64,000 nucleotides of DNA from Halorubrum rubrum. GTDB lineage: Archaea > Halobacteriota > Halobacteria > Halobacteriales > Haloferacaceae. Position numbers and translations under genes: made by a program. Under the pieces are notes generated by a model, which was not told the origin of the DNA, searched no databases, and saw only the letters and a program-made list of their open reading frames with translations. Positions 21,743-55,686 of this stretch are shown here, piece by piece. The stretch lies in NCBI RefSeq assembly GCF_024494685.1, contig NZ_JANHDM010000009.1, forward strand, positions 1-64,000, read 5' to 3'. Position 1 is the stretch's first letter; each line of letters begins with the position of its first letter.

Positions 21743-23431
21743 ATGGGATTCGAACCGCTGTCTCGACTCCGAGCCAGTTACGGCGTGAAGCTCGCGTCGT
21801 CGCTGGTCGGGGTGATGGGCGTCTCGGTCGCGTACGGGGTCGTCGTTTACGGCCGTACGGGGGATATCGGTCCCGCGGGGGAGGAGATCCGCTCCGGGTT
21901 GGTCGGCATGACGTTGCTCACCGTGATAGGGCTCGCGCTGATCGGGGTGACCGTGGGGTCGAACACGGTCGTCTCGCTGCGACAGCTCACCCGGAAGGCC
22001 GAGCGGATGGCCGACGGCGACCTCGACGTCGCCCTCGAGACCGGACGGACGGACGAGATCGGTCGACTCTTCGCTGCCTTCGACGGGATGCGCGGCTCGC
22101 TCAAACGCGAGATCCGCGAGGCCGAGGAGGCGAGGGCGGACGCCGAAGCGGCGCGACGTGAGGCGGACGAACGGGCCGCGACGATAGAGCGCAAGGCGAC
22201 CGCCTACGAGGAGGCGATGCGGGCGCTCGCCGACGGCGACCTCACCCGACGGGTCGACCCCGACTGCGAGAGCGACCCGATCCGTCGGGTCGGAACCGCG
22301 TTCAACGAGATGGCGGCGGAGCTCGAGGGGACGGTCGCGTCCGTCGCGTCGGTCGCCGAGGACACCGCGACCGTCGCCGGGACGGTCGACGACCGGACCG
22401 AGAACCTGCGGTCGACGACGGGGACGGTCTCCGGAGCCGTCTCCGAGATCGCGGACGGGGCGCGAACCCAGCGCGACGACCTGCGAGCGACGACCGACGA
22501 GGCCGAGTCGCTCGCCTCCTCTGCGGAGGAGGTCGCGGCGACGGTGAGCGAGGTCGCCGAGACGGCCGAACACGCCGCGGCGGTCGGCGAGGAGGGCCAG
22601 GAGGCGGCCGAGGCGGCGCTCGACCAGATGGACGCCGTCGAGGCGGTCACCTCCGAGACGACCGAGGACGTCGAGGCGCTCGCCGAGGAGATCGAGGAGA
22701 TCGGCGAGGTCGTCGACACGATCGCCGAGATCGCGGAACAGACCAACATGCTCGCGCTCAACGCCTCGATCGAGGCGGCGCGCTCGGACGCCGACGGCGC
22801 GGGATTCGCGGTCGTCGCCGAGGAGGTCAAGAGCCTCGCGGAGCGGACCCAGGAGTCCGCCGCCGAGATCGAAGACCGGATCGGCGCGGTCCAGGCGCGC
22901 GCCGAGGCGAGCGTGGAGTCGATCGCGGAGACCGAAGATCGGATCGAGACCGGCGTCGAGACGGTCGAGACCTCGATCGACGCGCTCGAGCGGCTCGCGG
23001 ACGCCTCCGAGCGGACCGACGAGAGCATGACCGAGATCACCCGTGCGACGGAGTCGCAGGCGGACACGGTCGACACCGTCGTCGGCCACGTCGAGGACGT
23101 CGCGGCAATCAGCGCGCAGACCGCGAGCGCCGCCGGCGACGTCACCGGCGCGGTCGACGAACAGGAGCGGACTCTCGCCGCCGTCGAGAACGCGGCAGAG
23201 GCCCTCTCGAGCCGCGCCGGCCGCCTCCGGCGCACCGTCGAGCGCTTCGAGTACGACGCCGACGAGGCGGACGAAGCCGGCGGCGTCGACGTCGACCTGG
23301 AGGGGACGCCCTCCGAGGGGGTGGCGACCTCCGACGGCGGCCGGGACCTCGCTCTCGGCGACGACTCCGGGGGCGACGGGGGACGCTCCGGCTTCGACTT
23401 CGCCGGCGACGGTCCGGGGGAGGTGAACTGA
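21743..23431 (+). CDS. htr2: Sensory rhodopsin II transducer HtrII (methyl-accepting)
   Basis: The 562-residue phototaxis transducer passes light signals from sensory rhodopsin II to CheA/CheW. Two membrane helices (~14-36 and ~52-74) enclose only a ~15-residue loop, so there is no extracellular chemoreceptor domain, like the Natronomonas type. Asn74 (VGSNTVVSL) sits where the Natronomonas HtrII residue contacts the receptor. HAMP domains follow (~75-240), then the signalling tip [19 protein letters not shown]. It is one base upstream of the rhodopsin gene, so it is co-transcribed. Confidence 0.95.
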
Positions 23432-23432
23432 G

Positions 23433-24170
23433 ATGCTCGCGAACGTGACCGTCTGGGCGTGGATCGGCGCGGTGGGGATGCTCGCCGGGACGGTTCCCTC
23501 GCTGTGGCTGTGGTACCGGCGGCCCTCGGAGGCGAGGTACTACGCGACGCTCGCCGGCGTCACGGGGATCGCGGCGGTCGCGTACGCCGCGATGGGACTC
23601 GGCGTCGGGACCGTCACAACGCTCGGCGGGACGTTGCCGGCCGCGCGGTACGCCGACTGGCTGCTCACGACGCCGCTTCTGATCGCCTACCTCGCGCTGC
23701 TCGTCCGGGCCGACCGGCGGACGATCGCGACGCTGATCGCCGTCGACGTGGTCGTCATCGCGGGCGGCGTCGTCGCGACGGCGACGACCGGTTCGGTCTC
23801 GTGGGCGGCGTTCGCCCTCGCCTCCGTCGCGTATCTCGGGCTCGTCTACGGGCTGCTCGTGAAGCTCCCGCGGTCGGCCGCGGCGCGGGCGGACCGCGTG
23901 CGCGCCGTCTTCTACACGCTCCGGAACATCACGGTCGTCCTCTGGACGCTGTACCCCGTCGTCTGGCTGCTCGCGCCGACCGGCTTCGACCTGCTCACGC
24001 CCGCGACGGAGATGCTCGTGTTCGTCTACCTCGATTTCGTCTCGAAGGTCGGGTTCGCGCTCGTGGCCGTCGGGGGCGCGGACGCGCTCGCGTACGTCGG
24101 AACCGACGCGAGTCGCGAGGTCGAGGACGGAGCCGAGCCGTCTCCGACGGGCGCGGAGTCGGCGGACTGA
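23433..24170 (+). CDS. sop2: Sensory rhodopsin II
   Basis: The 245-residue seven-helix retinal protein is the blue-light phototaxis receptor. By direct residue count, the retinal Lys is 205 (DFVSKVGF), the counter-ion Asp is 75 (ARYADW), Arg72 and Asp201 are present, and the proton-donor position 86 is Tyr, so it is not a proton pump. Tyr174 and Tyr199, key for signal transfer in the Natronomonas protein, are retained. Position 204 is Ser where that protein has Thr. It follows htr2 after one base. Confidence 0.95.
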   Translation: MLANVTVWAWIGAVGMLAGTVPSLWLWYRRPSEARYYATLAGVTGIAAVAYAAMGLGVGTVTTLGGTLPAARYADWLLTTPLLIAYLALLVRADRRTIATLIAVDVVVIAGGVVATATTGSVSWAAFALASVAYLGLVYGLLVKLPRSAAARADRVRAVFYTLRNITVVLWTLYPVVWLLAPTGFDLLTPATEMLVFVYLDFVSKVGFALVAVGGADALAYVGTDASREVEDGAEPSPTGAESAD

Positions 24171-26819: not shown

Positions 26820-27162
26820 ACCGCTACCCCCTTCCGACCGGGGGGTAAAACAGATTACGGTCCGTCGTCGCGATCATGGCACGAACGTGTATGAATCCCG
26901 CACACACTGTCGGAAGATATCGTCGTTCGTGCCATCCCACTGGTGGAGCGGTCTTCCGTCCGATCAACAAAACGGGTATCGAAGCGCGGAAGCTACTCGA
27001 AACGTGCCGTACCCGTCCGTATCGATCTCGTTTCTCAGTCTCCCGTGTTCCCTGAATATCCGTTGTCCCCGAAATCCAATTCATCTGATACATTCCGCGT
27101 TTCGAACTAGTATCGTGTCGGTTATCATAACGTTTAACATGGACCGGTAGCACCCACGGGTT
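26820..27162. other. Lower-GC intergenic region, two divergent promoters
   Basis: This 343-bp gap is visibly richer in A and T than its surroundings. It holds the purA promoter region (a TAATCTGTTTTA stretch near 26845-26856 on the minus strand) and, at the right end, CGTTTAAC (27131-27138), 25-32 bases before the TBP-like gene. Frames crossing it do not look coding. It marks the left edge of a compositional islet. Confidence 0.5.
27131..27139 (+). promoter_or_regulatory. TATA element of the TBP-like gene
   Basis: AACGTTTAACATGG contains a TATA-like core about 28 bases before the ATG at 27163, consistent with a nearly leaderless transcript. Confidence 0.45.
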
Positions 27163-27588
27163 ATGTCGACGAACACGATCCCGCTGGAAGAGATCCGCGC
27201 TCAGGCGGCCGATCTCCCCGTCGATCTCTACGAGGGTGACGCCACTGCGTATGCCAGGTTCGATCAGGCGTTCTCGCTCGAATCCGTCGCGATCGCGTTG
27301 GGTGAGTCTGACTGTCTGTACGATGAGGCGACGTTTCCCGGTGTCGTGTATCAGCCGGACAATCTTCCGACGACGGTTGTCGTCTCCGGAGATGGGACCG
27401 TCCTTTCCATCGATGCGACGGAGGAAGCACACGCGAGGTCGGCAGTCTCGAACGTGATCGATACGTTAGACGACCTCGGGTTGATCGTGGACGCTCGCAC
27501 CCCGGAGATCTCCACGAACGTACGAACCGTCCCGTTCTCGTTGACTCCTCCGTCCGTAGAGACGCTGGGCTACGACGATGACTCGTGA
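27163..27588 (+). CDS. TBP-like protein with one complete TBP repeat
   Basis: The 141-residue protein aligns by eye with the first half of archaeal TBP: FDQAFSLESVAIALGESDC, then FPGVVY (residues 58-63, the DNA-intercalating stirrup motif of TBP), TTVVVSGDGTVLSID, and a helix ending DTLDDLGLIVD. After this it enters the start of a second repeat (TPEISTNVRTVPFSL, like TBP's PEIxVQNIV) and stops about 15 residues later, so the second stirrup is absent. The phenylalanine expected in the first repeat's IFxSGK strand is lost. It may be a decayed TBP or a regulator. The propeller gene follows after 90 bp. Confidence 0.75.
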   Translation: MSTNTIPLEEIRAQAADLPVDLYEGDATAYARFDQAFSLESVAIALGESDCLYDEATFPGVVYQPDNLPTTVVVSGDGTVLSIDATEEAHARSAVSNVIDTLDDLGLIVDARTPEISTNVRTVPFSLTPPSVETLGYDDDS

Positions 27589-27678
27589 CGTCTGCCACGC
27601 CCGGGTCTCGCCGATCCAGCATCGGCGGACGTGGTCGGAAACCAACTCACCTCGCCGCTGGATTCAGGTGATCGGAAC

Positions 27679-28683
27679 ATGAAACGAGAGCAAGCTGAGG
27701 GGGATGCTGGGGAACTGCTGTGGACCTTCGAAATCGGAAGCCCGATCGCTTCCTCGCCGACGGTGGTCGACGAGACCGTCTACGTTGGAAGTGACGACGG
27801 ATTCCTGTACGCGATAGACACGAACACCGGCGCCCCACTGTGGCGTTTCGAAACTGACGCTCCAGTGGTGAGTTCGCCAACCGTGCGAGACGGGACGGTC
27901 TACGTCGGGAGCGTCGACGCGAGACTGTATGCTGTAGACGCAAGCACTGGCACCGAGCGGTGGCACTTCGAGGCTGAGTACCGAATCGACTCCTCGCCGG
28001 CGGTGGTCGATGGGACGGTCTATATCGGAAGCTGGGACGAACGTTTGTACGCAGTGGATGCGGCTACCGGGATCGAGACGTGGACGTTCGAGACCGGGGG
28101 AGAGATCTCAGCTTCGCCGGTGGTCGCCGACGGGACTGTCTACGTCGGGAGCTGGGACGAAAACTTGTACGCGGTACACGCTACTACTGGTGACGAGCAG
28201 TGGGCCTTCGAAACTGATGGCTACGTTACTTCGCCGACGGTGGCCGACGGGACTGTCTACGTCGGGACCAACTCTCCTACCGGGGTGTCGTATCTATATG
28301 CGGTGTACGCAACCATCGGGACCGAGCAGTGGCGCTTCGAAACCGGGGATGCGGTCGGTTCATCGCCAGCCGTAGGAACGGGCATCGTATACGTCGGGGA
28401 CGATGGCGGTCACCTGTCTGCGGTGGCTACCGACGACGGTACCGTACACTGGACCTTCAAAACCGGGAGTTGGATCCATTCGTCGCCTGCGGTGGTCAGC
28501 GATACCGTTTACGTCGGAAGTGCCGACGAGAACCTGTATGCGGTGGATGCGGCCACTGGTACCGAACGGTGGACTGTCCACACCGACGGCGAGATCTCGT
28601 CCTCACCGACGGTGGTAGACGGGACGGTCTACGTCGGGAGCGAAGACGGATCCCTGTACGCGGTGAGGGCGTCACGGAACTGA
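27679..28683 (+). CDS. Eight-repeat PQQ-like beta-propeller protein
   Basis: The 334-residue protein consists almost entirely of eight tandem ~40-residue repeats of the form WxFETGxxIxSSPTVVDGTVYVGSxDxxLYAVD, the PQQ-binding-like (BamB/quinoprotein) propeller pattern. It has no signal peptide or lipobox, so it is probably cytoplasmic, unlike most relatives. The repeats are also similar at DNA level, pointing to recent expansion or gene conversion. A GTG at 27631 could add 16 residues, but the ATG at 27679 precedes the first repeat more closely. It follows the TBP-like gene, and partnership is inferred. Confidence 0.85.
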   Translation: MKREQAEGDAGELLWTFEIGSPIASSPTVVDETVYVGSDDGFLYAIDTNTGAPLWRFETDAPVVSSPTVRDGTVYVGSVDARLYAVDASTGTERWHFEAEYRIDSSPAVVDGTVYIGSWDERLYAVDAATGIETWTFETGGEISASPVVADGTVYVGSWDENLYAVHATTGDEQWAFETDGYVTSPTVADGTVYVGTNSPTGVSYLYAVYATIGTEQWRFETGDAVGSSPAVGTGIVYVGDDGGHLSAVATDDGTVHWTFKTGSWIHSSPAVVSDTVYVGSADENLYAVDAATGTERWTVHTDGEISSSPTVVDGTVYVGSEDGSLYAVRASRN

Positions 28684-33286: not shown

Positions 33287-34261
33287 TCAGTCCATCGTGA
33301 TGCCGTCCTCGGCCTCGAGCAGCTCGTGGTAGCGGTTCCGGATCGTGACCTCGGAGATGTTCGCCACCTCGCTCACCTCGCTCTGGGTCACCTTCTCGTT
33401 GGTGAGGAGGGCGGCGGCGTAGACGGCGGCGGCCGCGAGGCCGACCGGCGACTTCCCGGAGTGGATCCCCTGTGCCTTCGCGGTGTCGAGGAGCTGCCGT
33501 GCGCGACGCTCCGACTCGTCCGAGAGCCCGAGGTCGGAGGCGAACCGCGGCACGTAGCTCTCGGGGTCCGCGGGCTGGATCTCCAGTTTGAGCTCGCGGA
33601 CGACGTAGCGGTACGTCCGGGCGATCTCGTCCTTCTCGACGCGGGAGACGCCGGCGATCTCGTCGAGGCTCCGGGGCGTCCCGGCCTGTCTGGCGGCGGC
33701 GTACAGCGACGCCGTGGAGACGCCCTCGATGGAGCGGCCGGGGAGGAGGTCCTCGTCGAGCGCGCGGCGGTAGATGACCGAGGCGGTCTCACGGACGTTG
33801 TCCGGCAGCCCGAGCGCGGAGGCCATCCGGTCGATCTCGCCGAGCGCCTGCTTCAGGTTGCGCTCCTTCGAGTCGCGCGTCCGGAACCGCTCGTTCCAGG
33901 TGCGGAGCCGCTGCATCTTCTCGCGCTGGCGGCTCGAGAGCGACTTCCCGTAGGCGTCCTTGTCCTGCCAGCCGATGTTGGTCGAGAGCCCCTTGTCGTG
34001 CATCATGTTCGTCGTGGGCGCGCCCACGCGGGACTTCTCGTCCTTCTCGCGGGAGTCGAACGCGCGCCACTCCGGCCCGCGGTCTATCTCGTCCTCCTCG
34101 ACGACGAGCCCGCAGTCCGCACACACCGTCTCGCCGTGTTCGGTGTCCGTCGCGAGCTGGCCGCCGCACTCGGGGCAGCGCAGCTCCTCGTCCGCGGATG
34201 ACTCGGTTTCCTGTTCCTCGTCGGCGTGTTCCGCCGTGTAGGTTCGAACGTTGTCGCTCAT
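33287..34261 (-). CDS. tfb: Transcription initiation factor TFB (paralog 2)
   Basis: This 324-residue TFB has a CPEC...CADC zinc ribbon (~30-50), the MHDKGLSTNIGW linker and two cyclin repeats ending SEVANISEVTIRNRYHELLE. It differs from paralog 1 mainly in the N-terminal ~28 residues and in charge changes across the cyclin repeats (for example SLYAAARQAGTPRSLDEIAG). The paralogs share a 115-bp identical DNA block (33759-33873 here, 5740-5854 there). Its promoter (34340-34356) leaves a leader of about 55 nt, like paralog 1. Confidence 0.97.
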   Translation of the reverse strand: MSDNVRTYTAEHADEEQETESSADEELRCPECGGQLATDTEHGETVCADCGLVVEEDEIDRGPEWRAFDSREKDEKSRVGAPTTNMMHDKGLSTNIGWQDKDAYGKSLSSRQREKMQRLRTWNERFRTRDSKERNLKQALGEIDRMASALGLPDNVRETASVIYRRALDEDLLPGRSIEGVSTASLYAAARQAGTPRSLDEIAGVSRVEKDEIARTYRYVVRELKLEIQPADPESYVPRFASDLGLSDESERRARQLLDTAKAQGIHSGKSPVGLAAAAVYAAALLTNEKVTQSEVSEVANISEVTIRNRYHELLEAEDGITMD

Positions 34262-34339
34262 TGTGTTTGGATCGGAGGGACCGCGGAACCGAAAGATGGG
34301 TCTACGTTCGGTTTTCCTCACCTCTCGGTAAGGACGCGA

Positions 34340-34356
34340 CTTATTTAAATCTTCGC
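34340..34356 (-). promoter_or_regulatory. BRE-TATA promoter of the second TFB gene
   Basis: Read on the minus strand, GCGAAGATTTAAATAAG provides a BRE and a TATA box about 80 bases before the ATG at 34261. The remainder of the 335-bp gap to 34596 contains the palindrome at 34477 and no gene. Confidence 0.65.
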
Positions 34357-34476
34357 TTCGATATCGAAGGTGAAAAGACGTCGAGAACTCGTTCCTGAGG
34401 CGCTCAAAATCCGATTTCACGATCGGACTTCCGTCACGATTCTTCGTGACCGACCGACGTGATCTGACGTCCGGAT

Positions 34477-50334: not shown

Positions 50335-50940
50335 ATGAACGAGACGCGCGAGACGGGCGCGGTCGTCGTCCTCCGGTACGGCCACCGACCTGGGCGGGAC
50401 GACCGTATGACGACGCACGTGGGCCTGACCGCGCGGGCGCTCGGCGCGGACCGGGTGATCCTCCCGGACAACGCCGGCCAGTCCGCGGAGACGGTGCGGG
50501 GGGTCACGGACCGGTTCGGCGGCCCGTTCGCGGTCGAGTTGCGCGACGACCAGAAGGCGATCGTCCGGAACTGGGAGGGCGTCGTCGTCCACCTCACGAT
50601 GTACGGCGAGCGGATCCAGGACGTCGAGGCGGCGATCCGCCGGGCGGTCCGCGGCGGCGACGAGGTCGTCGACGGCGACGGCGGCGACGGCCGCGACGAG
50701 GGAGGCCGGGACCTCCTCGTCGTCGTCGGCGGCGAGAAGGTGCCGTGGGCGCTCTACGAGCGGGCCGACTTCAACGTAGGCGTGACGAACCAGCCGCACT
50801 CGGAGGTCGCCGGCCTCGCCGTCTTCCTCGACAGGCTCTTCGAGGGCGAGGAACTCGACCGCGAGTGGGTCGACGCCGACCGCCGCGTGGTGCCCGAGGC
50901 GACCGGTAAGACGGTGGTCGACGCGGACGACGACGGGTAG
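50335..50940 (+). CDS. trm56: tRNA (cytidine(56)-2'-O)-methyltransferase aTrm56
   Basis: The 201-residue SPOUT-class enzyme methylates C56 in the T-loop of archaeal tRNAs. It starts with the signature VVVLRYGHRPGRDDR, then MTTHVGLTARALGAD, VVVHLTMYGERIQDV, and the trefoil-knot SAM-binding end VVVGGEKVPWALYERADFNVGVTNQPHSEVAGLAVFLD. A Gly/Asp-rich insert (GDGGDGRDEGG) breaks the middle, likely a surface loop. It is divergent from purC. Confidence 0.93.
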   Translation: MNETRETGAVVVLRYGHRPGRDDRMTTHVGLTARALGADRVILPDNAGQSAETVRGVTDRFGGPFAVELRDDQKAIVRNWEGVVVHLTMYGERIQDVEAAIRRAVRGGDEVVDGDGGDGRDEGGRDLLVVVGGEKVPWALYERADFNVGVTNQPHSEVAGLAVFLDRLFEGEELDREWVDADRRVVPEATGKTVVDADDDG

Positions 50941-50988
50941 TTCGGGCGGGCCGTCGGATCTCGACCGCCCGGCCCTTCGGGCGCGGAT

Positions 50989-52465
50989 CTACCGGCCCTC
51001 ACAGCCGTACTCGGTGCGTTCCCGGTCGATCAGCTCGGGCGTTCCCCGCAGGATGCCGCGCATGTTCGACATCGGCTCGCCGACCTTGATCCCGTGTTCC
51101 GTGATCTCGAACTCGCGGATCGTCCGCTCGAAGTCACTGGTCCGCTTCTTCAACACGCCGATCGCCTTGCGCATCTCCCCGTGTATCTCCAGGTGCCGTA
51201 AGAAGACGATGTTGTCGGCGAGGTAGCTGATGTTCTCCATCGTCGCCCGGAACTCCCCCGTGACGTTGCGCGTCTCGTCGACGAAGACGGCGGTCACGCC
51301 CATGTTCTTGAGGTAGCGGCCGAGCGCGTGCATATGCTGGAGCATCGTTGTCTCCTCGCCACGGAGGGTGAGCCGGTACCCCGAGATCCCGTCGATCATC
51401 ACGATGTCGGCGTCGCGCTCCTCGACCTCCTCGCGAACCATTCGCGCGAACTCCTGGGGCGACCGTTCCAGCGCCTCCACTTCGGTCACGTCGAGGGTCC
51501 CCTTCTCGATCATCCGGTCGACGGGGATGTTGACCGCCCGCGACCGGTGAGGAACGTCTCCTTCGTCTCCTCGAAGAGGTAGATGGCCGACCGCTCCCCG
51601 CGGCCGGCGGCCTCCTTCATGAACTGCGTGGCGAGCGTCGTCTTGCCGACGCCGGTCGGACCGCTGACGATGCTCACGGTCCCGCGCTCGAGCCCGCCGG
51701 CGAGCAGCTCGTCCACCTCGGGGATGCCCGAGGAAATGGTCTCGAGTTCGTACTCACCGACGTGCTCGCCCGGCTGGAGCGCCGGATAGGCCGCGATCCC
51801 CCGGTCGGTGATCCGGTAGGCGTGGTCGCTGCCCTGCGTCGAGGAGCCGCGGAACTTCGGCACGCGGATCGACTTCCCGTGCGCCTCGGTACCCAACACG
51901 ATCGTCCCGTCCGTGATGAACTCGAGGTCGTCGCTCGGCAGCGACGGCGTGTCCTGGACGGTGAACAGCACGGTCGCGTTCCGCCCCTTGAGAAAGCGCA
52001 TGAATCGGACGACCTGCTTGCGGAACTGGTAGTCGTCGTCGGTCAGGAACCGCAGCTGTGTCAGGGAATCGACGACGACCCGGTCCGGATCGACCTCGGA
52101 GATCCCCTCGACGATCCGTTCGGTGAGCGCCTCCCGTTCGACCTCCGAGGGGGCGAACACTTCGTACGACTGGTCCTCGGTGAAGACGTCCGCGTTCGGG
52201 CTCAGATCGAGAAAGTCGATCGCCTCGGTGTCGAACCCCAGGGCCGCGGCGTTCGCCTTCAGGTCGCCGAGGTCCTCCTCGAGGTTGATGAAGAGCGCCG
52301 CCTCGCCTCGTTCGACGCCCTCGTCGAGGAAGCGGAGGCCGAGGATCGTCTTCCCGCTTCCCGCCCGTCGATCATGTAGCTCCGCTCCCGGATCAGCCCG
52401 CCGGACAGGATCTCGTCGAGCCCGGCGACGCCGGTCGAGGCCCGCTCGGGGAGTGATGGTGACAT
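50989..52465 (-). pseudogene. KaiC-like double-ATPase gene with two frameshifts
   Basis: Three frames together make a ~490-residue KaiC/RadA-like protein. Piece 1 (52465 to ~52375) has MSPSLPERASTGVAGLDEIL up to the first P-loop. Piece 2 (to ~51537) carries GSGKTILGLRFLDEG, Walker B VVVDSLTQL and the second P-loop GPTGVGKTTLA. Piece 3 (to 50989) has MVREEVEERDADIVMIDGIS and VFVDETRNV. Break 1 lies in a CGGGCGGG tract (~52363-52370) inside the Walker A loop; break 2 (~51541-51543) looks like one lost C in FLTRSRAVN. A TATA box at 52489-52497 supports the start. Relatives act in signalling; this copy is broken unless the indels are sequencing errors. Confidence 0.85.
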
Positions 52466-52488
52466 CCCGTCGGCGTTCGGCGAGTAGA

Positions 52489-52497
52489 GTTATAAAG
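52489..52497 (-). promoter_or_regulatory. TATA element of the KaiC-like gene
   Basis: On the minus strand CTTTATAAC lies 24-32 bases before the ATG at 52465. The promoter is intact although the gene is frameshifted. Confidence 0.6.
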
Positions 52498-52567
52498 GAC
52501 GACGCCGCGGCGAGCGGCAATGTAGAGGGACAACCATTAGTGGACGTGTCCGGTTTTATTATGGGAT

Positions 52568-54034
52568 ATGGGCTCGGGTTCCGAGGAGGTCGACGGGGAC
52601 GCCGTCCGCGACTCCGGCGACCGCGGGGAGAGACCCGGCCTGCTGCTTTTCATGCGACCGGGACGCGACCGCGACCTGCTCGTCGAGGCACTGAGCGGGC
52701 GGTATCGGGTCGAGACGGCGACGGACGCGGCCGCGCTCGAGTCGACCTTCGACTGCTGTCTCCTCGACGCGGCCGGGTTCGAGCGGGCGGCCGGAGCCAT
52801 CGAGCCGCGGCGGGAGCGGGCGGCCCCCGCGTTCCTCCCGTTCGTCCTTCTGGTTCCCGAGGACGCGAGCGGCCCGGCCGCGGAGCGCGCGTGGGAGCGC
52901 GTCGACGACGTCGTCGACCTCCCGGTGAAACGCGCCGAGCTGGCCGCCCGAGTCGCGAACCTAGTCGAGCGCCGGGAGACCTCCTTGCGGCTCGCGGAGA
53001 CGGTCGAGGAGCTGCGGCTGAAAGAGCGGGCGATGGACGAGGCTCCGGTCGGTATCACCCTCGCGGAGCCGGGGACGGAGGACAACCCGCTGACCTACGC
53101 GAACGCGGAGTTCGAGCGGCTGACCGGGTACGGCTCCGAGATGCTCGGCGAGGACTGTCGGTTCCTCCAGGGCGAGGAGACCGACGAGGAGACGACGGCG
53201 CGGGTCCGGGAGGCGATAGACGCCGAGGAGCCGGTCTCCGTGGACGTCCTGAACTACCGGGCGAACGGTCGGACGTTCTGGAACCGGCTCACGGTCGCGC
53301 CGATACGCGACGCGGAGGGGACCGTCACGGACTACGTCGGGTTCCAGACGGACATCACCGACCGGAAGATCCGCGAGCGCAGGCTGGAGGTGATGAACCG
53401 CGTGCTCGACCACAACCTCCGGAACAAGATGAACCCCATCGACGGCTACGCGGAGCTCCTCCGCGAGGAGGTCGACGACGAGCACGAGCGATCGATCGAG
53501 GTGATAGCGGAGACGACGGACGACCTCATGCGGATCGCGGAGGCGGTCCGGAAGATCGAACACACGCTGTCGTCGTCCGACGCCGCGGCGCCCGCGACCG
53601 CGTTGCGCGACCGGCTCTCGGAGCTCGTGAACACGTTCGAGGGGCGGTACCCGAACGCGACCTTCGAGCTGTCCGTCCCCGAGGACGACCCGCTCGAGGT
53701 CACCGTTCTCGGGTTGCTGACCGCGATCGAGGAGGGCGTCGAGAACGCGGTGAAACACAACGGTGCCCCGAACCCGTCCGTCGAGATCCGGGTCGACCGC
53801 CCGGAGCCGGGGTGGATCGCGGTCGAGATCGAGGACGACGGTCCGGGGATCCCGGACCACGAGACGCACGTGCTCAGACTCGGCGAGACGTCGCTGAAAC
53901 ACGCCGACCGGCTGGGCCTCTGGCTGATGTACTGGGTCGTGAGCAAGGCGGGCGGAGACTTCTCCGTGAGCACCGGCGGGGGGGCGGGCACGACCCTTCG
54001 ACTGTCCGTCCCGACGGACCCGACCGAGTCGTGA
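52568..54034 (+). CDS. LOV-domain histidine kinase with receiver-like N-terminus
   Basis: The 488-residue soluble kinase has a receiver-like domain (~24-135, Asp67, Lys121), then a PAS domain (~155-268) with LOV photoreceptor features: GEDCRFLQGEETDEE holds the adduct-forming Cys197, and Asn229 (LNYRANG), Asn239 (FWNRL) and Gln260 (GFQTD) sit at the usual FMN contacts. A His-box follows (MNRVLDHNLRNKMNP, His282), then an HATPase domain with VENAVKHN and EDDGPGIP. Blue-light sensing is therefore likely. It is divergent from the KaiC-like gene. Confidence 0.9.
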   Translation: MGSGSEEVDGDAVRDSGDRGERPGLLLFMRPGRDRDLLVEALSGRYRVETATDAAALESTFDCCLLDAAGFERAAGAIEPRRERAAPAFLPFVLLVPEDASGPAAERAWERVDDVVDLPVKRAELAARVANLVERRETSLRLAETVEELRLKERAMDEAPVGITLAEPGTEDNPLTYANAEFERLTGYGSEMLGEDCRFLQGEETDEETTARVREAIDAEEPVSVDVLNYRANGRTFWNRLTVAPIRDAEGTVTDYVGFQTDITDRKIRERRLEVMNRVLDHNLRNKMNPIDGYAELLREEVDDEHERSIEVIAETTDDLMRIAEAVRKIEHTLSSSDAAAPATALRDRLSELVNTFEGRYPNATFELSVPEDDPLEVTVLGLLTAIEEGVENAVKHNGAPNPSVEIRVDRPEPGWIAVEIEDDGPGIPDHETHVLRLGETSLKHADRLGLWLMYWVVSKAGGDFSVSTGGGAGTTLRLSVPTDPTES

Positions 54035-54070
54035 GGGCCACCCGGAGCCGGTAGCGGGGGCGACGAGCGC

Positions 54071-55030
54071 CTACAGCGCCCGCTTCGACCGGAGCCGAGC
54101 GAGCCGAACTCGCGCCTCCTGTCGGCTCGTCCCGCGCACCCGACCGGTCTCGTCGTCCGCCATCGAGACGAACGAGAGTCGGTCGAAGAGCGGCGGCCAG
54201 TCGGCCGCGCCGGCGGCCTCGCCCGCGAACGCGACCGCGTTCGCGAGGCCGTCGCGTTCCGTCTCGCCGGCGCGGGCCACCGCGGCGTCGGCGGCGCGCC
54301 GGCGGTCGGCGACGAACAGCCGGTCGCCGACGACCGCCGGGATCCACGCCGGGAGCGCGACGATCCAGACGAGGAGGCCGGCGGCGGCGTACGCCGGTGC
54401 CGGGATCCGCTCGCGGTCGGGCTCGTACCCGTGGATCCGGTTGACGCGGCGGTCCGCCGGGCTGCGGTCGGACCGGCGACCGACGAGAAGCGTCGCGAGC
54501 AGCGTCACCCACTCCACGACGACGAGTCCGGGTAACAGCGCGGTCGTAAAGGCCGCCTCGCGGGTGCGAAGTCTGACCACCGCGTGGCGCAACGCGGCGT
54601 CGCGGTCCGCCGCCGGCAACGAGAGGAGCCGCGTGGAGACGACGAGCCGCGACCCCCGGTAGCCGTCGGCGACGGCGACGTTGGCCGCCTCGGCCCGGAC
54701 GGCCGTCACCGGCGGCGGGTCGACGCCGACCGACTCCGCGACCGCGTCGACGCGCGACTCGATGAACGCGGCGGGACGGTCGTCGAGGTCGGCCGCGGGG
54801 AGCCGGGCGATCCGCCGGTCGACGAGGACCGGACCGAGCGCGGCCGAGGTCGCGAGCCCGACGAGGGCGGTCGCGAGCCCGACGACCCCGCCGCCGACAT
54901 CGAGGCCGACGGCGACGCCGAGGAGCCACGCGAGGGGGACGACCGGGATCGTCGCGAGGACGACCGGAACGGTCGCGAGCGCGAGCGCGCCGACTGCCGT
55001 GGACGCCCGATCGATCGCACCGGAGTTCAT
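54071..55030 (-). CDS. M48-peptidase-like membrane protein lacking the HExxH site
   Basis: The 319-residue protein has two N-terminal membrane helices (~12-70), a soluble segment, two more helices (~170-190 and ~220-245) and a basic C-terminus, the layout of HtpX/M48 peptidases. The segment NVAVADGYRGSRLVVSTRLL aligns with HtpX. The following zinc site, HELAH in active members, reads ALRHAVVRLRT, so the catalytic Glu and second His are gone. It is probably a pseudo-peptidase. Start ATG at 55030, divergent from tfe. Confidence 0.7.
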   Translation of the reverse strand: MNSGAIDRASTAVGALALATVPVVLATIPVVPLAWLLGVAVGLDVGGGVVGLATALVGLATSAALGPVLVDRRIARLPAADLDDRPAAFIESRVDAVAESVGVDPPPVTAVRAEAANVAVADGYRGSRLVVSTRLLSLPAADRDAALRHAVVRLRTREAAFTTALLPGLVVVEWVTLLATLLVGRRSDRSPADRRVNRIHGYEPDRERIPAPAYAAAGLLVWIVALPAWIPAVVGDRLFVADRRRAADAAVARAGETERDGLANAVAFAGEAAGAADWPPLFDRLSFVSMADDETGRVRGTSRQEARVRLARLRSKRAL

Positions 55031-55161
55031 ACGAGGGAGGCGTGGCGCGGGCGGCGTATAGCTCTGCCGGAGGCCGTCGATCCCGTCGGAGGGCGACCGG
55101 CCGGAGGCGTCGGATCCGCCTTCCGGAGCTTTTAACCTCGCTCCGCCGCCAGATCACGGTA

Positions 55162-55686
55162 ATGGCTTTTGAGGACCTGTTGAACGACCCCGTCATCCAG
55201 AAGTACCTCCACGAACTCGTGGGGCCGACGGGGATGCCGGTCGCGGCCGCACCCCCGGACGGCGAGGTGACCGACGAGGAGTTGGCCGAGGAGCTCGGCT
55301 TGGAGCTCAACGACGTCCGCCGCGCGCTCTTCATCCTCTACGAGAACGACCTCGCCACCTACCGGCGGGTCCGCGACGAGGACTCCGGCTGGCTCACGTA
55401 CCTCTGGACGTTCCACTACGACAACATCCCGGAGAACCTCCAGGAGGAGATGTACCGGCTGCTCGACGCCCTGGAGGACCGCGAGGAGTACGAGCGCACC
55501 CACGAGTTCTACCTCTGTGAGGTGTGTTCGCTCCGGTTCGAGTTCGGCGAGGCGATGGACTTCGGTTTCGAGTGTCCCGAGTGCGGCTCGCCGCTCGACG
55601 CGATGGAGAACGATCGGCTCCAGGAGGCGCTGTCGGCGCGCCTCGACGAGCTTCGAGACGAGCTCAACGCGGACGTGACCGGCTGA
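55162..55686 (+). CDS. tfe: Transcription initiation factor E alpha (TFE)
   Basis: The 174-residue TFE helps open promoter DNA with TBP and TFB. The N-terminal winged helix (TDEELAEELGLELNDVRRALFILYENDL) is followed by a C-terminal zinc ribbon, CEVCSLRFEF...CPECGSPL. The length matches archaeal TFE. It starts a cluster: its stop overlaps the DUF2110 start by one base (TGATG), and the DUF5803-like gene follows after 14 bp. Confidence 0.95.
   Translation: MAFEDLLNDPVIQKYLHELVGPTGMPVAAAPPDGEVTDEELAEELGLELNDVRRALFILYENDLATYRRVRDEDSGWLTYLWTFHYDNIPENLQEEMYRLLDALEDREEYERTHEFYLCEVCSLRFEFGEAMDFGFECPECGSPLDAMENDRLQEALSARLDELRDELNADVTG

Follow-up and report, generated by a model that had tools for sequence, protein, structure and literature searches.

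The 64,000-nucleotide stretch of the Halorubrum rubrum genome analysed here (the window) encodes a free-standing protein with a single TBP lobe, and this protein, which we call half-TBP, belongs to a family of single origin that traces back to the C-terminal TBP lobe of haloarchaea. TBP ranks among the best-conserved proteins that archaea and eukaryotes have, and its origin is held to lie in the duplication of one lobe; the half-TBP lineage has taken the reverse route, back to one free-standing lobe that selection has kept and that has spread between genomes, which opens the way to testing directly what one TBP lobe does alone. The loss of the parts with which TBP grips DNA suggests that one half of this universal transcription factor was put to a different use, perhaps in controlling genes or defending the genome.

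Results

The reading frame starts with an ATG at position 27163 and stops with a TGA at 27586-27588 (Table 1), and PF00352 is the only Pfam family that its 141 residues match, at residues 28-104, with an E-value of 6.6e-9 and 35.9 bits, above the gathering cut-off of 22.9; in particular, there is no fusion to an RNase H domain. By sequence, its closest relatives in the PDB are archaeal TBPs. When the entire 3.2-Mb genome was searched with PF00352 in six frames, it yielded two normal two-lobe TBPs as well as the single-lobe half-TBP, and no second lobe near the latter; a second lobe is also absent from its relatives. An earlier reading of the DNA by sequence only had described a 141-residue, single-lobe TBP-like protein at 27163-27588, and in this it was right. 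An AlphaFold model, built from an alignment of two near-identical sequences, has a mean pLDDT of 44, and for this reason neither surfaces nor a dimer can be inferred from it. When it is submitted to Foldseek, TBPs lead the hits (1pcz and 1ais; probability 1.0, E about 0.03) and the matches to archaeal TBPs cover one lobe, in line with the sequence result. The proposed check for a TBP lobe thus came out positive by PF00352 and by the PDB relatives, with the weak model in agreement. A TTTAA within a block conserved in the orthologue upstream of the gene is a candidate promoter of a leaderless transcript.

Which of the two lobes is it? Separate N-lobe and C-lobe profiles were built from 41 full haloarchaeal TBPs. 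The window protein reaches 45.7 bits with the C-lobe profile and 24.7 bits with that of the N-lobe, and all 15 half-TBPs, the window member included, prefer the former. The NCBIfam models place half-TBP mostly on repeat two, for example at positions 106-185 of 186, and the haloarchaeal C-lobe signature NLNAxAIGLGL is retained in most of the relatives. The sequence-only reading had taken the lobe for repeat one, and on this point it has to be corrected. Namely, the FPGVVY stirrup that it assigned to the first repeat is indeed found at residues 58-63, but the lobe derives from repeat two, and the PEIxxxV that it read as the entry to a second repeat, while present at residues 114-120, is not conserved in most relatives and is no remnant of a repeat. 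What is more, in hhalign, columns 28-130 of the half-TBP family align with positions 80-188 of full TBP with a probability of 99.8%, and this profile-profile alignment begins at the final helix of the first lobe and runs to where the second lobe ends. Judging by these alignments, it is most likely that an ancestral TBP shed lobe one apart from its last helix, with the N-terminal helix of half-TBP presumably being what is left of it.

Table 1. Positions of half-TBP, its parts and related genes in the window.
Feature	Position	Strand	Basis
Half-TBP and beta-propeller segment	26933..28759	.	Present in the window and G137 at the same site; absent in close relatives
TTTAA, about 28 nt 5' of the ATG (candidate promoter)	27133..27137	+	Sequence comparison; within orthologue-conserved block
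Half-TBP coding sequence, 141 aa, single TBP lobe	27163..27588	+	Open reading frame; PF00352 6.6e-9; 96% orthologue; dN/dS 0.145
N-terminal helix segment (residues 8-30), family-wide	27184..27252	+	hhalign match to helix H2 of the absent N-lobe
TBP lobe, C-lobe type (residues 28-104)	27244..27474	+	PF00352 and lobe profiles
Stirrup FPGVVY (residues 58-63)	27334..27351	+	Phe is the yeast F190 equivalent, invariant in 15/15 half-TBPs
C-terminal tail (residues 111-141), VPFxxxPPxVETxG in the window subfamily	27493..27585	+	Low-confidence in the model
PQQ/BamB-like beta-propeller protein	27631..28683	+	PF13360 1.3e-58; 42 bp 3' of half-TBP, same segment
TFB gene, the closer of the window's two	33290..34420	-	Gene in the window
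TFE-alpha gene	55042..55686	+	tfe orthologue head-to-head with half-TBP in G094 and G097

Single-lobe half-TBPs were found in 15 genomes (the window's and 14 others), which fall into four families of the order: the window's own family (8 of 170 genomes), f4 (5 of 146), f17 (1 of 28) and f16 (one). The nearest relative is that of Halorubrum sp. 48-1-W (G137), 96% identical to the window protein, followed by G279 (60%), G097 (46%) and G094 (38%); G108, G401, G491, G493, G490 and G367 contribute further members, and the remaining four, in G090, G184, G159 and G086, carry C-terminal zinc ribbons, which in the first two are double and above the Pfam cut-off, in G159 a weaker match, and in G086 a cysteine pattern read from the sequence. 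The genes of these zinc-ribbon members lie at L011:1237-1878, L041:1183-1896, L019:1246-1956 and L089:1342-1998, and we found no description of a single TBP lobe combined with C-terminal zinc ribbons. In a maximum-likelihood tree all 15 half-TBPs fall on one side of one branch, beside the C-lobes and with a support of 100/99; some of their branches are long, so that the inner order of the tree is uncertain. The family has in common an N-terminal helix segment, one lobe of C-lobe type and a single origin, and the proposed search for a conserved truncation found orthologues that are single-lobe and not full length.

The distribution is patchy and partly horizontal. At the chosen cut-off, with the top candidates per genome scored, there was no half-TBP among 125 genomes of family f7 and no additional one in a phylum-wide sample of 295 genomes, both of which are weak negatives; the weakest matches of the family search (about 1e-28 to 1e-29) turned out to be full TBPs and not half-TBPs. 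No relatives were found in viral contigs or phages, and no place on plasmids matched at least 80% of the query, and a viral or plasmid source was rejected on these grounds. As a warning for annotation, not all haloarchaeal matches to PF00352 are TBPs.

In the window, half-TBP has purA, the beta-propeller gene and a wHTH gene as neighbours, and no transcription or defence operon. The sequence-only reading had placed it next to multiple TFBs, and there are indeed two TFB genes in the window, one near 5.3 kb and one near 33.3 kb, but the nearer is some 6 kb off and not adjacent. In close relatives, purA directly adjoins the wHTH gene, with flanks that are roughly 89-94% identical. The 1.83-kb half-TBP segment has a GC content of 0.603 versus 0.696 for the window, and G137 carries it at the same site, though in purA the window has closer relatives than G137; consequently, a gain or exchange of the segment is a more economical account than numerous losses, neither being proved.

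Elsewhere the contexts are different. In G094 and G097 half-TBP lies head-to-head with TFE-alpha and adjoins Trm56, which counts as one observation since both genomes are of the same genus; there it stands alone between trm56 and tfe, and in the window a KaiC-like ATPase, a PAS histidine kinase and other genes occupy this interval (50335-55686). In G108, G401, G491 and G493 it is the final gene of a Mre11-Rad50-NurA-x-HerA operon, directly downstream of HerA. The near-identical operon, with a protein of 235 aa before HerA that matches no Pfam or PADLOC family, recurs at L069:9809-18136, L066, L093 and L094 in two families. The HerA-linked half-TBPs of G108 and G401, which belong to different families, are 93% identical in amino acids, and such near-identity points to horizontal transfer. 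In G490 half-TBP follows sngA, sngB and a helicase in the Shango order (SngA 3.8e-83 and SngB 6e-172 by PADLOC, the helicase identified by reading its sequence), and an HNH gene and then Mre11-Rad50-NurA lie downstream of it. All of these, the last gene being NurA-like, are on one strand at L092:3587-18762, possibly a composite defence locus. Finally, half-TBP lies downstream of a Cdc6-like ATPase in G367, between sepF and uvrA in G090 (uvrA read from sequence), and between a protoglobin transducer and a HEAT/zinc-ribbon protein in G279.

Are half-TBPs, then, components or regulators of defence or mobile islands, carried as cargo by cassettes that move horizontally, where they would adjust how the cassette is transcribed or detect foreign DNA? 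The Mre11-Rad50-NurA-HerA and Shango neighbourhoods in five genomes, the 93% identity across families and the absence of the 1.8-kb segment from close relatives all fit such a role, but the window, TFE-linked and zinc-ribbon members are outside recognised defence operons and half-TBP itself has no PADLOC model match, so that we consider it possible, if on the improbable side.

Another role could be that of a decoy: having kept the TFB-binding face of the C-lobe, half-TBP would titrate TFB away from TBP and act as a negative regulator, in a genome that has several TFBs. Two acids of TBP, C.L3.2 and C.L3.4, contact TFB (PMC7221094). Both are Glu in six members, namely the four HerA-linked ones and the zinc-ribbon members of G184 and G086, but the window protein has Asp (E to D) and Ala (E to A); the second is Ala also in its orthologue and Ser in the TFE-linked members. 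From these residues, TFB binding would be a real possibility for the members with both Glu and less so for the window member. For the latter, the decoy is weakened because one of the two acids is lost, and the first is only a conservative Asp throughout the window subfamily, which makes this explanation a doubtful one.

As for DNA, the roles of the TBP contact residues are those that we take from established structural work, in yeast TBP numbering, with Asn159 and Thr215 as the minor-groove contacts of the C-lobe. Asn159, Lys211 and Thr215 are missing in all 15 half-TBPs (the window member has Asp at the first and Ile at the last), and the Gly that follows Thr215 is Asp in 13 of them. The stirrup phenylalanine, F190, is retained throughout; F207 is retained in nine of the 15 and lost in the window clade, with Ser in the window, and the loss of the IFxSGK phenylalanine noticed by the sequence-only reading, also to Ser, is borne out. 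TBP has an intercalating Phe pair per lobe; of these the window protein, having no N-lobe, offers the F190 equivalent only. The mean number of K+R per lobe is 2.3 versus 5.2 for C-lobes, and the window protein has no Lys at all. Since Asn159, Lys211, Thr215 and most of the basic charge are lost, TBP-like binding of TATA by half-TBP appears unlikely.

The same residues bear on a pseudo-TBP homodimer, in which two half-TBPs would rebuild a symmetric saddle on a special class of promoters. TBP saddles are two-fold pseudo-symmetric, and the first phenylalanine is invariant and the second kept in most members, but because the DNA-contact residues are lost, together with more than half of the basic charge and, in the window clade, the second phenylalanine, we regard such a dimer as distinctly unlikely.

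Finally, dN/dS was calculated by NG86. Between the window gene and its 96% identical orthologue in G137 it is 0.145, with 11 of 16 nucleotide differences at third positions; it is 0.29 against G279, and 0.22-0.23 and 0.13 inside the HerA-linked group. More distant pairs give 0.38-0.57, which is near saturation and less informative. By this measure the window half-TBP is under purifying selection, and the orthologue comparison that had been suggested (about 0.15 and 0.29) agrees with a stand-alone protein that forms one clade across four haloarchaeal families and has a dN/dS of about 0.15-0.3 in the window and its nearest relatives. Moreover, the window and G137 are 96.2% identical in DNA over half-TBP, 90.5% over purA next door and 85% over the intergenic stretch, which speaks against decay, with a recent exchange of the segment also possible. 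That the gene is a decaying paralogue, as had been proposed, or a local nonsense truncation of a TBP, is hardly credible: it is short and patchy and has lost functional residues, and haloarchaeal TBPs with degenerate lobes are known (TbpC-like, PMC4230888), but the single-lobe form with its N-terminal segment is common to 15 genomes, four families and one clade, dN/dS is 0.13-0.29 in the informative pairs, there are no internal stops, and half-TBP is better conserved than purA. A local frameshift or nonsense truncation was also rejected directly, there being no second lobe in six frames and a 96% single-lobe orthologue at the same site.

Discussion

On balance, we think it somewhat probable that half-TBP is a TBP C-lobe repurposed as a protein-binding adaptor with putative partners. 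Namely, its members keep the lobe core and the stirrup, have lost the DNA contacts, have added an N-terminal helix and vary in their tails, and they are found repeatedly near large ATPases or TFE. The homology to the C-lobe, the dN/dS values, the loss of contacts and the contexts beside TFE, HerA, Shango and the Cdc6-like ATPase count for this reading, from which we infer both role and partners. An ancestral TBP would have been left with only the last helix of lobe one in front of lobe two, and alone the remaining lobe would no longer recognise TATA. The retained stirrup and lobe helices, together with the tail or the zinc ribbons, would then serve for docking onto partners, which for the TFE-linked and window subfamily may be a component of transcription initiation, and for the operon-linked subfamily DNA-end-processing or helicase ATPases. 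Against this, the window neighbours belong to neither a transcription nor a defence operon, and the invariant F190 fits a remaining nucleic-acid role. Lone TBP lobes can bind nucleic acid, for example in RNase HIII (PMC12917281). More generally, a lone TBP lobe, blind to TATA, might be a new class of basal-factor derivative and serve as an exchangeable adaptor, used by one subfamily in TFE/TFB initiation and by another with DNA-end-processing and defence ATPases, an extension that we put forward only tentatively and hold to be rather unlikely. The recurrent placement after HerA, Shango and the Cdc6-like ATPase and beside TFE would connect a general transcription factor with DNA processing or defence.

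How does half-TBP compare with known systems? With canonical archaeal TBP it has the PF00352 lobe family in common, but it has one lobe where TBP has two in tandem that form a saddle, it lacks the three contact residues and most of the basic ones (and F207 in the window clade), and the two TFB-contact acids are unlike those of TBP in the window member, but E and E in six others. TbpC-like haloarchaeal TBPs have lost the N-lobe Phe pair and kept that of the C-lobe (PMC4230888); they retain both lobes, in contrast to half-TBP, where the N-lobe is gone except for its last helix. A single TBP lobe, regarded as a prototype, is also the N-terminal substrate-binding domain of bacterial RNase HIII (PMC7221094, PMC12917281). 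There it is fused to a nuclease, whereas half-TBP is free-standing, without a nuclease domain, and is a secondarily reduced C-lobe. In five cases half-TBP is the next gene downstream of the ATPase or helicase genes of Shango (SngABC) or Mre11-Rad50-NurA-HerA operons, a placement seen in other members only, as the window half-TBP is outside any such operon; none of the descriptions of these systems that we found includes a TBP-like component. In the literature outside subscription, searches for archaeal TBPs with one lobe turned up bacterial single lobes and the degenerate two-lobe TbpC only, and no account of a free-standing paralogue of this kind in archaea.

Some further observations are worth recording. 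In the window, a methyl-accepting transducer with a microbial rhodopsin gene directly after it (21743-24170) forms a sensory rhodopsin-transducer pair. On the Natrinema plasmid NZ_CP082247.1 (L075:2701-3500) there is a TBP that lacks annotation; with a stop inside it and a broken C-lobe, it is apparently a pseudogene. On the Halorussus aquaticus plasmid NZ_CP100403.1 (L074:5677-6219), a 180-aa 'hypothetical protein' reads as a divergent two-lobe TBP; it is flanked on one side by an SNF2/PLD helicase, for which HKD+Snf2 is the best PADLOC model, and on the other by a type IIG-like methyltransferase. McrC is adjacent, and from its sequence the 180-aa protein, which we abbreviate no further, would be another TBP paralogue in a defence island.
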